From Bacillota bacterium (lineage in GTDB: Bacteria; Bacillota; Clostridia; Lachnospirales; Lachnospiraceae), in the NCBI GenBank assembly GCA_029224465.1, contig JAQXUQ010000032.1:1-56955 (forward strand): a DNA stretch of 56,955 nucleotides, written 5' to 3'. Under the pieces are notes generated by a model that saw nothing but the letters and a program-made list of their open reading frames with translations, had not been told where the DNA came from and did not search any database. Both the position numbers and the translations under genes were made by a program. This document shows positions 20,034 to 26,189 of this stretch, piece by piece (positions within the stretch are counted from its first letter, which is position 1; each line of letters opens with the position of its first letter).

Positions 20034-20738
20034 ATGACAATTAATGTGGAAAGAATTGTGCGGAGCGTAGACCACACACTGCTCCGGACCGATGCGACGA
20101 TTGATGAAATCAAAAAGCTCTGTGATGAAGCCGTGAAATATCAGACAGCCAGCGTCTGCATCCCGCCCGCGTACGCGGATGAGGCGGTGGCTTATCTTGC
20201 AAAGAAGGCGGAGGAAGCAGCGGACGCCGGAGACGAAAAAAGAGCGAAGCCGGTACCTGTCTGCGTTGTCATAGGTTTTCCGAACGGATATTCCACGGCG
20301 GCGTCCAAGGTTTTTGAAACGCGCGACGCTATAAAGCGCGGTGTAAGCGAAATCGACACCGTCATCAATGTCGGGTTCGTAAAAAACGGCCGGTATGATG
20401 CAATCCTTGAAGAGCTGCGGCAGATCCGGGAAGCTGCAGGGGACCATGTAATGAAAGTTATTATCGAGACCTGCCTTCTTACGCAGGAAGAGAAGATCCG
20501 CATGTGCGATATCGTAACGCGTTCGGGGGCAGACTTCATCAAGACCTCGACCGGTTTCTCCAAATTTGGAGCAACGCCCGAAGATGTGAAGCTCCTCGCA
20601 GAGCATGTCGGCCCGGGCGTGAAGGTCAAGGCTGCAGGCGGAATCCACACGCTTGAAGAAGCGCAGAATTATCTGGATCTCGGCGCTTCCAGACTTGGCA
20701 CCAGCTCGATCATTAAACTTCTCGAAGAAAAGAATTAA
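20034..20738 (+). CDS. deoC: deoxyribose-phosphate aldolase
   Basis: Cleaves 2-deoxyribose 5-phosphate to glyceraldehyde 3-phosphate and acetaldehyde. The class I aldolase residues are Asp108 (EIDTVINVG), Schiff-base Lys170 (FIKTSTGF) and Lys199 (VKAAGGI). 234 residues, normal length. SD GAAAGGA precedes the ATG. It sits after a 5'-deoxynucleotidase and 16 bases before the lacZ fusion. Confidence 0.96.
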   Translation: MTINVERIVRSVDHTLLRTDATIDEIKKLCDEAVKYQTASVCIPPAYADEAVAYLAKKAEEAADAGDEKRAKPVPVCVVIGFPNGYSTAASKVFETRDAIKRGVSEIDTVINVGFVKNGRYDAILEELRQIREAAGDHVMKVIIETCLLTQEEKIRMCDIVTRSGADFIKTSTGFSKFGATPEDVKLLAEHVGPGVKVKAAGGIHTLEEAQNYLDLGASRLGTSSIIKLLEEKN

Positions 20739-20754
20739 AGCGGAGTGAAACGCT

Positions 20755-23700
20755 ATGGCATTTTCATCCAACAATTATGAGCAGCTCGGGTTCGCGGACC
20801 GGACACTGACTCTTTCACGGAAGGAACAGCGGATGCTTTCGGATTCCTTCGCGGGGATGTTCGCGGAGAAGATTTTTCCGCTGATTGACGAAAAGATTTT
20901 CATGAATCTTTACAGCACGGATTCGGCAAGACCTTCCAGCCCTGTCAACGTCACGGTCGGCGCGATGATTCTGGAAGTGCTGTTCGATATGAACGATGAT
21001 GAAGTCGTCAGCTCGCTTGTCTGCGACCTGCGCTTTCAGTACGCGCTGCATACAACGAGCGCGCTTGTGCAGCCGCTCAGCAGCAGGACGATCCAGCGGT
21101 TCAGAAAGCGCTGTCAGGACGAATATGCTTCTTCCGGAAAAAATCTGATCGCGGAATGTCTCGCCGGGGCAGCAGCGCCGATCGGCGAGCTGCTGGAGCG
21201 GTATTTCCCCGGGAAAAATCTGGACGCTTTAAAGATCGCGGACGCGATTATGCGGAAGAAGGGCGGGAAGTGTTTTGACTATTACCGCGTTGTTCCTGAC
21301 CCCGAAACTTTCAAAGAAAATGTGCTGCCCGCACACTCGGATCACATGTATTACGCATCGCGGGAGGAGATGGAAGCTTCCTGTGATTACAGAAAAGATC
21401 CGGTGTCCTCGTTCCGGATGAGCCTGAACGGACTTTGGAAATTCGCATACGCGCCAAACTTTGCCGGTGCAGTGAAAGGCTTCGAATCGTGCTCCTTCGA
21501 CTGCAGCGGCTGGGACGATATCCATGTACCCGCCCACATCCAGATGGAGGGCTATGACCAGCCCGCGTATGTAAATTATCAGTACCCGTGGGACGGCCGG
21601 GAAGACATAAAGCCCGGACAGGTGCCGACCAGGTATAATCCTGTCGGCAGCTATGTCCGGTATTTCACGGTGCCGGCATCCATGCAGGGAAGGCCTGTCT
21701 ATATCTCGTTTCAGGGCGTGGAGTCCGGCTTCGCGCTCTGGCTCAACGGAACATATGTCGGGTACAGCGAGGACAGTTTTACCCCGTCGGAATTTGAACT
21801 GACGCCGTATCTTACGGAAGGCAGCAACAAGCTCGCTGTGCAGGTTTTCAAGTGGACGTCCTCCAGCTGGCTCGAGGATCAGGATTTCTACCGGTTTTCA
21901 GGCATCTTCCGCGATGTCTATCTGTATACGGTTCCCGAAGTGCATGTGCGGGACATGAAGATCCGCGCGCTTGTCGATGACGATTACGCGGGCGGGCGGC
22001 TTCTGATGCACCTGCATTTTACTTCAGATGAGGAACTGGCAGGCGGCGGCAGGCACAGATACGGCTTTACGCAGTATCAGCTTTCACTTGGCGGAAGGAT
22101 TGTGCTCTCCGGTGAAATCGACAACGAAAAGGACAACGAAATCTCTGCCCGTCTTCCGCAGGTGCGCCTTTGGTCCGCGGAGAATCCGGTGCTGTACGAC
22201 CTTTATCTGACCATTCACGCCAAAACAGGCGCCGCCGTCGAATACATCCACGAACGCGTCGGCTTCCGGCGTTTTGAGATGAAAAACGGGCTGATGTGCC
22301 TGAACGGGAAGCGCATTGTTTTCAAAGGCGTAAACCGTCATGAGTTCTGCTGCGACAGCGGCCGCGCGGGGATCAGCCGGGATATGGTATTGCAGGATCT
22401 TGTCCTCCTGAAGCAAAACAACATCAACGCGGTCAGAACCTGCCACTACCCGGATGATTCCAGGCTGTACGGCCTCTGCGACGAGCTGGGAATCTACCTG
22501 ATGGCGGAGAATAATCTGGAGACGCACGGATCGTGGGCATTCGCGGAGCTGGGCCTTTCTCCCAAGGAAGAGATTATACCGGGCGACAGGAAGGAGTGGC
22601 TGCCTGTTCTTCTGGACAGAGTGACTTCCTGCTATGAGCGGGACAAGAATCATGCGTCTATCCTGATCTGGTCTATCGGAAATGAATCTTATGGCGGCAG
22701 CGATCTGTTTGAAATGTCCAGACTTTTCCACAAGCTGGATCCGGACCGGCTTGTCCATTATGAAGGCATCTTCCATGACAGGAGATATAACGCCACCAGT
22801 GATATGGAAAGCCAGATGTATCCGTCTGCCGAAGCTATCCGGAACTTCCTTTCGCAGCATCCGGAGAAACCGTTTATCTGCTGCGAATATTCCCATTCCA
22901 TGGGTAATTCCAACGGCGGCCTTTACCGGTATACGGAACTATCGGACACCGAGCCCCGCTATCAGGGAGGTTTTATCTGGGACTTCGTGGACCAGTCGAT
23001 CCGCACAAGGGACCGATACGGAACGGAGTATCAGGCATACGGCGGCGATTTTCTGGAACGCCCGACCGATTATTCATTCTCCGGAGACGGGCTGGTCGCC
23101 GGAGACCGCATGCCGTATCCCAAGCTTCAGGAAGTACGTTTCACGTACCAGAACATTACAGCAAGAGTCGGAAGGGATCAGGTCCTTATTATCAACCGGA
23201 ATCTGTTCACCGGCACGGATGCCTATGACTGTGTCGTAACGGTTCTCCGGGACGGCATAGAGATTGCGGAAAAACCGCTGGAAACCAGCGTGCCGCCTCT
23301 CTCAAGCAAGGCGTATATGCTGCCGGTTCCGGTTTATACAGAACCGGGCGAATATGCCGTAACCGTATCGTTCCATCTGAAAGAGACCTGCGCATGGGCG
23401 GAAAAGGGGTATGAAATTGCTTTCGGACAGGGCGTTTACAAGGTAGAGGAACAGACGCCCGCAAAGGATGCCGCGGAAGTCTCCGCGGAAACCGGAAAAC
23501 CGGAGGATGACGGCACGCTCCAGATCGTGCGCGGCGTTTACAACATCGGCGCGAGGGCAGGAGAGAGCGAAATACTGATTTCACTTCTTGCGGGAGGCGT
23601 CAGTTCGCTGCGTATCGGCGGAAAGGAGATGCTGCTATCCGTACCGCGGCCGAATTTCTTCCGGGCGCCGACGGACAACGACCTTGGAAACAAGATGCCC

Positions 23701-24459
23701 GCGAGGTACGGCATCTGGAAGATCGCGAGCGAATATCCGTCAACCGTGCCCATCGAAATGATGCAGGCGCCCGCGGAGCAGCTCGAACGGGCTTCGCATT
23801 ACCCGAAAATGACCGCAGGGAAAGACCGGCTGGACGTCACGCTCTGCCAGTTCCTTCCGGGTGCTCCGGACGCGTCGCTGGATGTGACCTACAGCTATTT
23901 TAAGGACGGGAGTCTTCGCATATCGATGGATTATGAACCGTCCGCGGGGCTGCCGCCGATGCCGGAGTTCGGTATGCTGCTGAAGCTGGATGCGGATTAT
24001 AATCAGCTGGACTTTTACGGCAACGGACCTCTCGAGTGTTATGCCGACAGGGATAAAGGCGCAAGACTCGGTATCTATCACACGACAGTGCAGGACAACA
24101 TGACAAGGTACCTGGTTCCGCAGGAATGCGGCAACCGGACCGGCGTACGGTGGGCAAAGGTAACCGACCGCCATGGCCGTGGCCTGCTGTTTACGGCGGA
24201 AAGCGGCAGCGCGCCGATGACCGGTCAGAGCGGAAACATACAGGAAATGAATTTTTCAGCGCTGCCTTATACGCCTGCCGAAATCGAGAACGCACTGCAT
24301 CACACGGAGCTGCCGCCGGTACATTATACGGTTGTCCGCGCGAGCCTCGCGCAGATGGGAGTAGCGGGAGATGATTCCTGGGGAGCAAGAACGCCGCGGG
24401 AGGATCTGCTAGATAATACGAAGCCTCTGCACTTTGCGTTCCGCATCCGCGGAATCTGA
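20755..24459 (+). CDS. beta-galactosidase (GH2) fused to a transposase N-terminal domain
   Basis: 1234 residues in one uninterrupted frame. Residues ~1-140 match the N-terminal DUF772-type domain of IS1182-family transposases (FPLIDEKIFMNLYS, ARPSSPVNVTVGAMILE, LRFQYALHTTS, LSSRTIQRFRKRC); the DDE catalytic part is absent. From about residue 173 a full LacZ-type GH2 enzyme follows: sugar-binding and beta domains, acid/base Glu644 (IGNES), nucleophile Glu711 (CCEYSHSMGN), and the LacZ C-terminal domain (RAPTDNDLGNK). The start at 20755 has SD GGAG; Met166 (21250) is the only other good candidate and has no SD. No permease is adjacent. The enzyme should hydrolyse beta-galactosides; what the N-domain does is unknown. 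Confidence 0.85.
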   Translation: MAFSSNNYEQLGFADRTLTLSRKEQRMLSDSFAGMFAEKIFPLIDEKIFMNLYSTDSARPSSPVNVTVGAMILEVLFDMNDDEVVSSLVCDLRFQYALHTTSALVQPLSSRTIQRFRKRCQDEYASSGKNLIAECLAGAAAPIGELLERYFPGKNLDALKIADAIMRKKGGKCFDYYRVVPDPETFKENVLPAHSDHMYYASREEMEASCDYRKDPVSSFRMSLNGLWKFAYAPNFAGAVKGFESCSFDCSGWDDIHVPAHIQMEGYDQPAYVNYQYPWDGREDIKPGQVPTRYNPVGSYVRYFTVPASMQGRPVYISFQGVESGFALWLNGTYVGYSEDSFTPSEFELTPYLTEGSNKLAVQVFKWTSSSWLEDQDFYRFSGIFRDVYLYTVPEVHVRDMKIRALVDDDYAGGRLLMHLHFTSDEELAGGGRHRYGFTQYQLSLGGRIVLSGEIDNEKDNEISARLPQVRLWSAENPVLYDLYLTIHAKTGAAVEYIHERVGFRRFEMKNGLMCLNGKRIVFKGVNRHEFCCDSGRAGISRDMVLQDLVLLKQNNINAVRTCHYPDDSRLYGLCDELGIYLMAENNLETHGSWAFAELGLSPKEEIIPGDRKEWLPVLLDRVTSCYERDKNHASILIWSIGNESYGGSDLFEMSRLFHKLDPDRLVHYEGIFHDRRYNATSDMESQMYPSAEAIRNFLSQHPEKPFICCEYSHSMGNSNGGLYRYTELSDTEPRYQGGFIWDFVDQSIRTRDRYGTEYQAYGGDFLERPTDYSFSGDGLVAGDRMPYPKLQEVRFTYQNITARVGRDQVLIINRNLFTGTDAYDCVVTVLRDGIEIAEKPLETSVPPLSSKAYMLPVPVYTEPGEYAVTVSFHLKETCAWAEKGYEIAFGQGVYKVEEQTPAKDAAEVSAETGKPEDDGTLQIVRGVYNIGARAGESEILISLLAGGVSSLRIGGKEMLLSVPRPNFFRAPTDNDLGNKMPARYGIWKIASEYPSTVPIEMMQAPAEQLERASHYPKMTAGKDRLDVTLCQFLPGAPDASLDVTYSYFKDGSLRISMDYEPSAGLPPMPEFGMLLKLDADYNQLDFYGNGPLECYADRDKGARLGIYHTTVQDNMTRYLVPQECGNRTGVRWAKVTDRHGRGLLFTAESGSAPMTGQSGNIQEMNFSALPYTPAEIENALHHTELPPVHYTVVRASLAQMGVAGDDSWGARTPREDLLDNTKPLHFAFRIRGI

Positions 24460-24472
24460 GAACAGAAGAAAT

Positions 24473-24521
24473 ATAAAAAGGCGGCCTGTAAAGCCCTCCA
24501 TCAGGAGAGCTTCAGGTCGCC
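24473..24521 (-). terminator. terminator of the PTS-IIC gene containing its stop codon
   Basis: Read on the minus strand, a stem (24513-24521 with 24480-24488, one mismatch) encloses an inner stem and is followed by a T-run (24479 down to about 24475). The stop codon (24501-24503) is in the loop region. It also separates the convergent lacZ fusion. Confidence 0.7.
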
Positions 24522-25559
24522 GTTCTTTATCCAGCCGAGCTTTCTGAAGGCTGCCGCGAAAAGCGGTGTCAGAACCGCCGGAAGGACAAAACAGATCATA
24601 AGCATGCCGAACCAGTCAAAGCCTGTGATCGAGGCTTTGGTACCATTCGCAATATCGGAAACCCAGCCGGTATAAATGCCGATCTGGCCGACCAGGCCGC
24701 AGGTCCCCATGCCGGAAGAAACCGGTGCGCCGTTCATCTGCAGATGGAAGACGCAGGTAGCAAGAGGTCCTGTAACGGCGGAGGTCAGGATCGGCGCGAT
24801 CCAGATCTTCGGGTTCTTCATAATGTTCGGCATCTGCAGCATGGATGTGCCGATTCCCTGGGAAATCAGACCGCCGATTTTATTCTCCGGATAGGACATG
24901 ACCGCGAAACCTACCATCTGCGCGCAGCAGCCCGCGACGGCGGCGCCGCCGGCGAGCCCGACAAGACCGAGCGCGGCGCAGATCGCGGCGGAAGAGATCG
25001 GAAGTGTCAGCGCGATGCCGACGATCACGGAGACCAGAATGCCCATGAAAAACGGCTGGAGGTCCGTGGCCATCATAATTAAGGAACCGACGGAAGATGC
25101 GAGCTTTCCGAGCGCGGGCGCGAGCAGCCATGCGAACGCGCAGCCCGTGATGATCGTGACAGTCGGCGTGACCAGAATATCGATTCTTGTCTCTTTAGAA
25201 ACCGCCTTTCCTGTTTCAGCAGCGATGATCGCGACAAACAGGACCGCGAGCGGACCGCCGGCGCCGCCGAGTTCATTGGCTGCCTGTCCGACTGCCGCGA
25301 GTGCGAACAGGACAAGCGGCGGTGCCTGCAGCGCGTACCCGATCGCGACCGCCATCGCGGGACCGCTCATGGCGGAAGCGTATTTGCCGACCGAGACCAG
25401 AGAGGAAAGACCAAGCTGCGTGCCTGCGGTATTGAGGATTGTTCCGATTAAAAGAGAGGCGAACAAACCCTGCGCCATCGCGCCGAGCGCATCAATGCCG
25501 TAGCGCTTTGCGGAGATGACGATGTTTTTACGGGCCAGAAAAGATCTGAGTGCGTTCAT
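24501..25559 (-). CDS. PTS-type IIC membrane protein (PTS_EIIC_2 family)
   Basis: 352 residues, very hydrophobic, about eight to ten transmembrane segments, many Gly/Ala-rich motifs (LGLVGLAGGAAVAGCCAQ, NKIGGLISQGIGTSMLQMPNIMKNP, NGAPVSSGMGTCGLVGQIG). The pattern fits the PTS_EIIC_2 family of putative transporters, which often occur without EIIA or EIIB partners; none are here. The upstream gene encodes NiaR and a NiaR-like dyad lies between them, so the substrate may be niacin-related rather than a sugar. SD AAAGGAG precedes the start. Confidence 0.8.
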   Translation of the reverse strand: MNALRSFLARKNIVISAKRYGIDALGAMAQGLFASLLIGTILNTAGTQLGLSSLVSVGKYASAMSGPAMAVAIGYALQAPPLVLFALAAVGQAANELGGAGGPLAVLFVAIIAAETGKAVSKETRIDILVTPTVTIITGCAFAWLLAPALGKLASSVGSLIMMATDLQPFFMGILVSVIVGIALTLPISSAAICAALGLVGLAGGAAVAGCCAQMVGFAVMSYPENKIGGLISQGIGTSMLQMPNIMKNPKIWIAPILTSAVTGPLATCVFHLQMNGAPVSSGMGTCGLVGQIGIYTGWVSDIANGTKASITGFDWFGMLMICFVLPAVLTPLFAAAFRKLGWIKNGDLKLS

Positions 25560-25588
25560 GATAAGACAGCTCCTTTATGTATATATAG

Positions 25589-25600
25589 GTGTCAAGACAC
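25589..25600. promoter_or_regulatory. operator-like dyad GTGTCaaGACAC (NiaR candidate)
   Basis: Arms GTGTC and GACAC flank AA; on the minus strand it reads GTGTCTTGACAC inside a longer, partly symmetric tract (25584-25605). This resembles NiaR sites as I recall them. It lies 30 bases before the PTS-IIC start. Confidence 0.55.
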
Positions 25601-25639
25601 ATGTAACGCTCTCCATTATGCTGGGACGGTACCGCCTTG

Positions 25640-26164
25640 TCAACAAGATTTTTCGCCGTAAAGATAACCTTTTGCGGCAAGCGCGTCCTTCACGCGGGCA
25701 AAAGCAGCCTCGTCACTGCAAAGAAGTGTATGCAGATGAACGCCTCCCGTCAGATCGGAGAGGGGAGCCGCGCTGGTGCCCTCGAGTTTTCGCATGAACT
25801 GCTGGACATCGTAGCGGCTCGACAGATGAAGCTGGCCCGTGAGCTGGCCGTATACCGGATGCTCGACGATCACATTTTCGACAGTGATGCCGTTGTCTAC
25901 CATAATATTCAGTTCGTCTTCCATCTGCTCCGGCGTATGAACGCAGGCCAGGCGGCGGATGATGCCGCCTGGCGTCAGTTTCAGAATATAGCCTCTCGGT
26001 GTTGCCGTGATATCTTCGCCGGATGCGCGTAGAAGCGCGATGTCGCCGACAATGATCTGACGGCTGACATTGTATCTTGCCGCGAGCTTTGAAGCGGAGA
26101 CAGGGCCTCCCGCGCCGGTAAGATCGGCCAGCAGAGAAGCTCTTCTTTCGTCTGATTTCTGCAT
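25640..26164 (-). CDS. niaR: NiaR-type transcriptional repressor (3H domain)
   Basis: 174 residues. An N-terminal HTH_11 winged helix (PVSASKLAARYNVSRQIIVGDIALLRASG, given in parts: residues ~21-49) is followed by the 3H domain, with His76, His102 and the pair His143/His145 (GGVHLHTLL) and Glu84. The His76/Glu84/His143/His145 set keeps the spacing of the metal site described for the Thermotoga family member. NiaR uses nicotinic acid as co-repressor to control NAD genes. ATG 26164 is chosen for SD AAAGGAG at 26171-26177; the longer frame reaches 26188. Confidence 0.88.
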   Translation of the reverse strand: MQKSDERRASLLADLTGAGGPVSASKLAARYNVSRQIIVGDIALLRASGEDITATPRGYILKLTPGGIIRRLACVHTPEQMEDELNIMVDNGITVENVIVEHPVYGQLTGQLHLSSRYDVQQFMRKLEGTSAAPLSDLTGGVHLHTLLCSDEAAFARVKDALAAKGYLYGEKSC

Positions 26165-26189
26165 GTTGGACTCCTTTATGTAAAACACC

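Follow-up and report, generated by a model that had tools for sequence, protein, structure and literature searches.

Trigger enzymes such as PutA, NadR and BirA are metabolic enzymes with a fused DNA-binding domain, and the N-terminal domain of transposases serves in end recognition. TnpA-REP is a whole transposase-like protein. In PMC8266576, TnpA-REP is called the first prokaryotic domesticated transposase. Among eukaryotes, fusions of transposase DNA-binding domains with host genes are known, for example a Tc1/mariner helix-turn-helix (HTH) captured by F-box genes (PMC12062965). Here we describe a bacterial gene that combines features of these systems. It lies in a 56,955-nucleotide contig of a Lachnospiraceae bacterium (the whole of this stretch is called the window below), and joins, in frame, the N-terminal region of a transposase like those of the insertion sequence (IS) IS1182 to a complete β-galactosidase (LacZ) of glycoside hydrolase family 2 (GH2).

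With the IS1182-like transposases of Lachnospiraceae (DUF772 plus DDE_Tnp_1_6) the fusion shares homology over residues 1-165 and an RFRxR motif, but it lacks the DDE domain, has no detected IS ends beside the window gene, has LacZ as its partner, appears to be inherited vertically, and has mostly lost F103, E105 and D110. It has the domain set and both glutamates of GH2 LacZ of the Bga2A type (NF052611), and LacZ activity is predicted; it differs by its transposase-derived start. As in the eukaryotic fusions, the putative DNA-binding part of a transposase is kept on a host gene, although here the host is bacterial and the partner a sugar hydrolase. As in the trigger enzymes, a metabolic enzyme is joined to a putative DNA-binding domain, here derived from a DDE transposase. 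Like TnpA-REP, it is a transposase-derived protein kept by bacteria, in this case the N-terminal part only and within a chimera. In the open-access papers searched, we found no DUF772-LacZ fusion, no comparable bacterial host-transposase fusion, and no bacterial metabolic enzyme with a selection-kept DDE-transposase N-terminus.

Architecture of the fused gene

The fused gene is an unbroken open reading frame at 20755-24459 of the forward strand, with 1,234 codons and no internal stop. Its parts, and the gene before it, are as follows (window coordinates).

20034..20738, + strand: deoC, the upstream gene (Pfam DeoC match)
20742..20745, + strand: Shine-Dalgarno-like GGAG, 9 nt ahead of the ATG of the transposase-derived part
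20755..21249, + strand: captured IS1182-like transposase N-terminal region, residues 1-165 (by homology, tree and alignment)
20929..21120, + strand: DUF772 (PF05598), residues 59-122 (Pfam match, E 2.8e-7)
21205..21270, + strand: junction or linker, residues 151-172 (by alignment)
21271..24456, + strand: complete GH2 LacZ of the Bga2A type, residues 173-1234, its native start Met replaced (Pfam and NCBIfam)
22684..22686, + strand: Glu644 in a GNES motif (present by alignment)
22885..22887, + strand: Glu711 in a CCEYS motif (present by alignment)

DUF772 is the sole Pfam match within residues 1-172, and the conserved R115-F116-R117-x-R119 motif falls inside it. The conserved core of the captured region covers about residues 1-140, and homology to transposases extends to about residue 165. 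This is beyond residue 157, where 19 of 20 transposase rows have Asp and the remaining row a gap, and which we take from its motif to be probably the first catalytic Asp of the transposase. Pfam gave no DDE match in the fusion; DDE transposase domains were present in the full-length relatives L082 and L100 (L numbers denote loci and their proteins, G numbers genomes). Residues 173-1234 match five GH2 LacZ Pfam domains and score 1335 bits against the NCBIfam Bga2A model (cut-off 999). Glu644 is presumably the catalytic acid/base and Glu711 the nucleophile. The native start of non-fused LacZ (for example L084, which begins MNTFDFGMVKDP, and L085) aligns at about residues 170-173, and therefore the capture replaced LacZ's own start. 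The N-terminal part and LacZ have G+C contents of 0.67 and 0.66 at third codon positions. In the window genome (34 contigs) there was no second DUF772 match; a lax threshold added one very weak match (E 0.27).

The sequence-only reading of this stretch had proposed an unbroken frame, an IS1182-family N-terminus over residues ~1-140, a complete GH2 LacZ at 173-1234 with both catalytic glutamates, loss of the DDE catalytic domain, a Shine-Dalgarno site ahead of the transposase part and tight spacing after deoC (the gap to the deoC stop is 16 nt). All of these hold, with the homology reaching further, to ~165. Three full-length relatives have IS1182 as their best NCBIfam match, at 128.7-136 bits and thus under the curated cut-off of 270, so we use the safer label IS1182-like.

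Distribution, origin and inheritance

Related genomes, in which the sequence-only reading had suggested looking, contain the same architecture: the in-frame fusion is present in 28 of 62 genus genomes, window genome included, and the carriers include Lachnospiraceae bacterium NK3A20 and Sarcina sp. DSM 11001. Three of the 28 frames (in G233, G214 and G224) reach a contig end. Two further genus genomes (G238 and G223) have the transposase part without the LacZ enzyme. When an N-terminal alignment of 28 rows (A1) was used as the query, 32 of the 62 genomes matched, 30 of them strongly (E < 1e-60); the matches in G239 and G228 were a broken transposase or fragment only. Residues 1-482 of the fusion matched 60 of the 62, many through LacZ only. 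PF05598 was matched by every one of the 28 fused N-termini, and 20 of 165 N-terminal positions are invariant across A1. Both catalytic glutamates are present in 26 of the 28 fused proteins, the exceptions being L067, which ends at a contig end, and L076. In the close neighbour G231, LacZ is 93% identical to that of the window, and an rpoB fragment showed 100% identity.

Beyond the genus, N-terminal matches were confined to frames as long as a transposase or shorter: we observed none in a frame longer than 559 aa among 397 family genomes, and none in a frame longer than 576 aa among 392 order genomes. In 398 phylum genomes, DUF772 frames other than the window's own were at most 756 aa (among the strongest matches listed, the longest being judged by length alone). 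A plasmid collection gave archaeal records only, of which the annotated ones were transposases.

Residues 1-165 show 39-50% identity to the strongest full-length or broken transposase copies (E < 1e-20). With eight more distant DUF772 transposases as the outgroup, and L186 omitted because it duplicates L089, a rooted tree placed the N-termini of the 28 fused and 2 enzyme-less proteins in one clade, with support of 99/99 from a bootstrap that was not fully settled. This clade lies among IS1182-like transposases, both full-length and broken, and the branches that place it there had moderate support (85/86 and 86/81). A single capture therefore explains the fused N-termini, and on this phylogeny the IS1182-like region was probably captured in frame by lacZ a single time, in an ancestral member of this Lachnospiraceae genus.

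The species distribution was examined on an rpoB tree of 48 genomes, namely the window genome and 47 of 60 submitted (7 had no match, G202, G255, G217, G203, G208 and G209 gave short pieces only, and G260 was not submitted). Two clades have the domain, in 12 of 13 and 10 of 11 genomes (with both enzyme-less ones counted in the second), and two clades of 12 lack it; one genome without it, G207, is only 73% complete. The trait needs 4 changes on this tree against a shuffled mean of 16.1, which fits one old gain plus a few losses. Distances in the N-terminus and in LacZ are correlated (r = 0.754, with 0 of 2000 permutations as high) for 24 of the 28 fused proteins, L056, L067, L068 and L076 being omitted.

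The genes next to the fusion are chromosomal and common within sub-groups: deoC/HD (from Pfam), phospholipase-D-like, or acylphosphatase/NUDIX (the latter two named from a reading of the sequences). Using outer and inner IS-end motifs derived from the G225 copies, with which divergent ends could be missed, we found none within 1.5 kb of the window gene and none at 25 of the 28 fused genes; stray matches occurred at L066 (one per motif), L068 (one) and L072 (two). Taken together, the rpoB distribution, the single N-terminal clade, the common neighbours and the scarcity of IS ends indicate, from genome comparison, that the fused gene is immobile and vertically inherited. The fusion appears to be neither recent nor local, and old within the genus. 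Recent insertion was rejected on the genus-wide distribution, the single clade and the rpoB tree. The earlier proposal of an insertion-derived start captured by lacZ is thus supported in part: the capture and the loss of the DDE part hold, but genome comparison does not show a local or recent insertion.

Some further observations concern the elements and neighbours. At L072 the outer motif occurs twice, inverted, at ~5,175 and ~5,386 nt after the fusion start and ~0.2 kb apart; this pair is perhaps a small non-autonomous IS relative. The IS1182-like element of G225 (L082, L089) carries, besides its outer ends, an inner inverted repeat, CCTTGAAAACTGAATATAGAT, at both ends. Downstream of the window gene, at 24501-26188 on the - strand, a phosphotransferase system EIIC_2-like membrane protein adjoins a regulator with HTH_11 and 3H domains, which we take to be NiaR-like. 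In 6 of the compared loci the fusion is followed by a relative of the EIIC gene.

Selection on the domain and its survival without LacZ

We estimated the ratio of nonsynonymous to synonymous substitution rates (dN/dS) for the N-terminal part in every fused pair, and compare it here with that of LacZ in the closest ones. In the 14 closest fused pairs, which overlap in species and are not independent, the N-terminal value was the lower one every time (0.015-0.138 vs 0.074-0.241 for LacZ). The N-terminal domain is, by this measure, under strong purifying selection, tighter than LacZ in the closest pairs listed. The junction (residues 151-172) was less conserved than the N-terminal part in 13 of the 14 pairs, and the distance between residue 146 and LacZ ranges over 22 to 96 residues among the fused proteins.

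Three loci have the domain without a working LacZ. G238 carries a stand-alone 181-aa domain gene (L077:3540-4082; compare L075) at the syntenic site, where both flanks match G232 and G204 and LacZ is gone in between; no other match to residues 1-482 of the fusion was found in G238. A terminator-like hairpin can be read in the sequence after this stand-alone gene. In G223 the domain is followed by no more than a remnant of LacZ (326 aa). In G241 (L076:5895-9971), an open frame of 1,359 aa has its TIM barrel reduced to 74 of 302 profile positions. The acid/base glutamate (E644) is missing from it, and E711 depends on the alignment (unaligned once, aligned to Glu in another). The G241 protein is possibly a pseudo-enzyme whose captured domain is intact. 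When G238, G223 and G241 were compared with other genomes, the N-terminal dN/dS came to 0.045-0.093. Since the domain outlives the enzyme in these genomes, it is hardly a passenger, and its survival without a working LacZ is, among the genomic data, the strongest argument that the domain may have work of its own.

What the domain may do

We put at roughly one half the probability that the protein is a domesticated chimera, in which a transposase domain with retained nucleic-acid-binding or regulatory capacity sits on LacZ. Sequence comparison shows that an IS1182-like N-terminal region was joined in frame to lacZ, probably in one ancestral event in the genus, with the joint just past the putative first catalytic Asp motif and in place of LacZ's own start. 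The chimera has since been passed on like any chromosomal gene, with its N-terminal domain under purifying selection even in the three species whose LacZ part is lost or gutted. In the mechanism that we propose, the domain would retain the nucleic-acid binding and/or self-association of the transposase end-recognition domain, and the fusion may act as a trigger enzyme, where sugar-bound LacZ alters the action of the attached domain on DNA, most simply on the operon to which it belongs. Where the domain stands alone, it would simply be a regulator. A regulatory module is thus the likeliest role that we infer, with a structural role for LacZ as the main rival.

The residue pattern is consistent with such a domain. 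Among the 30 fused-type N-termini, R115 is kept in 29, F116 in 28, R117 in 29 and R119 in 26, and these positions are kept in transposases too. Asp at residue 157 is present in 16 of the 30, which fits a catalytic remnant that may be drifting. The pattern fits a folded domain that may still bind nucleic acid, with its specificity changed or its transpososome contacts lost. A sequence-profile search of solved structures gave as its best match a heptaprenyl diphosphate synthase subunit at E 0.0096, which we took as chance.

Several findings weigh against this reading. Three positions close to the RFRxR motif that are conserved in transposases are mostly lost in the 30 fused-type N-termini: F103 (17 of 20 transposases vs none), E105 (20 of 20 vs 2) and D110 (17 of 20 vs none), and therefore the domain may no longer bind IS ends. 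Over residues 1-125 the net charge averages -0.8 (-4.5 in transposases), so this part is not basic, although such a near-neutral charge pushes in neither direction. R117 is changed to His in the enzyme-less G223, and the assemblies of G238, G223 and G241 are 81-87% complete. The domain is absent from 32 of the 62 genus genomes, and over the whole set the N-terminus is more diverged than LacZ (mean distance 0.489 vs 0.420). The fused LacZ did not form one clade in a quick, unrooted LacZ tree (drawn with a midpoint root) that included six non-fused rows from the genus. This tree gave mostly the same fused sub-groups, with the six non-fused rows in two places among them and L063/L065 in the opposite half from their place in the N-terminal tree; loss of the domain in the L083/L087 lineage would explain part of the discordance. 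Finally, no upstream operator was seen by eye in the 220-nt upstream stretches, where no motif search was made.

Two upstream repeats were noted by eye. The divergent intergenic region ahead of the fusion retains a dyad, TGGCGTGCCA, in three related species (L057, L060 and L062), where it could serve either gene as an operator. In L074 the fusion start is preceded, at a distance of about 50-140 nt, by GGGATGTGATCAA-like units repeated in a short tandem array.

On the main rival view, the domain has been recruited to support the oligomerisation or stability of LacZ, replacing the role of LacZ's own N-terminus, with no nucleic-acid binding. The fusion point at about the native LacZ start, the co-divergence of N-terminus and LacZ, and the altered transposase-conserved positions together with the non-basic charge all suit it. 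Yet purifying selection still acts on the domain in genomes that have lost LacZ (G238) or keep it only in gutted form (G223, G241), the stretch after residue 146 varies in length in a way unlike a rigid packing interface, and congeners have LacZ without the domain (such as L083-L088); we consider this explanation possible, though rather unlikely. Less likely again is transposition control, in which the captured end-binding domain would act in trans against related IS1182-like elements. N-terminal transposase inhibitors are known, the domain descends from the end-binding part of a transposase, and it survives alone. Against this, the transposase-conserved positions are mostly lost, and full-length related transposases (at least 500 aa) were found in 4 of 30 genomes with the domain (those of G219 and G256 belonging to a more distant group) and in none of the 32 without it. 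This is the opposite of exclusion and speaks against IS immunity.

That the domain is a passenger was an option of the sequence-only reading, and we regard it as improbable. In this case the transposase piece would contribute nothing beyond a start codon and a ribosome site, with internal initiation also yielding LacZ. Start candidates within 25 codons of the LacZ start occur in 24 of the 28 fused genes, 16 of them with a Shine-Dalgarno-like match of at least 4 nt. The best-looking are L071 (ATG204, AGGAGG) and L062 (ATG187, AGGAG), which, as read from the sequence, are good local candidates for a secondary LacZ start, and four genes of the window's sub-group (the window gene and those of L050, L051 and L052) have a GTG at one and the same Val, residue 190 of the window protein. 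However, the other 4 genes have no candidate, and no further common position was seen outside close sister pairs. In 26 of the 28 genes the N-terminal ATG follows a Shine-Dalgarno match of at least 4 nt. Met166, near which homologues might have started, is present in G231 only of the 27 other fused genes, and the N-terminus matches intact fused genes and full-length transposases as well as decayed copies. The dN/dS of the N-terminus, 0.015-0.14 and so far below 1, and the retention of the domain after LacZ loss also disfavour a passenger. An assembly or frameshift artefact is extremely improbable: the window does come from a 34-contig assembly, but 27 other genomes, those of NK3A20 and DSM 11001 among them, have the same in-frame junction, which excludes chance or misassembly.

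More tentative than the domesticated chimera itself is an extension of it, in which the captured DNA-recognition domain gave rise to a lactose/galactoside-responsive DNA-binding enzyme and was later freed in some species as a stand-alone transcription factor. What can be said for this group of gut and rumen bacteria is that an enzyme that splits lactose has for long borne the front part of a jumping-gene protein, kept by selection, which suggests a new job for that part. The system offers an origin that can be located on the species tree, many species, natural controls (domain-less and enzyme-less) and an easily assayed partner, and therefore makes the recruitment of transposase domains in bacteria testable. 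Should the domain prove to bind DNA, it might also be a starting point for a DNA-binding module that responds to sugar; and if a transcription factor was indeed freed from it, a jumping gene would have given rise to a regulator through a metabolic enzyme.

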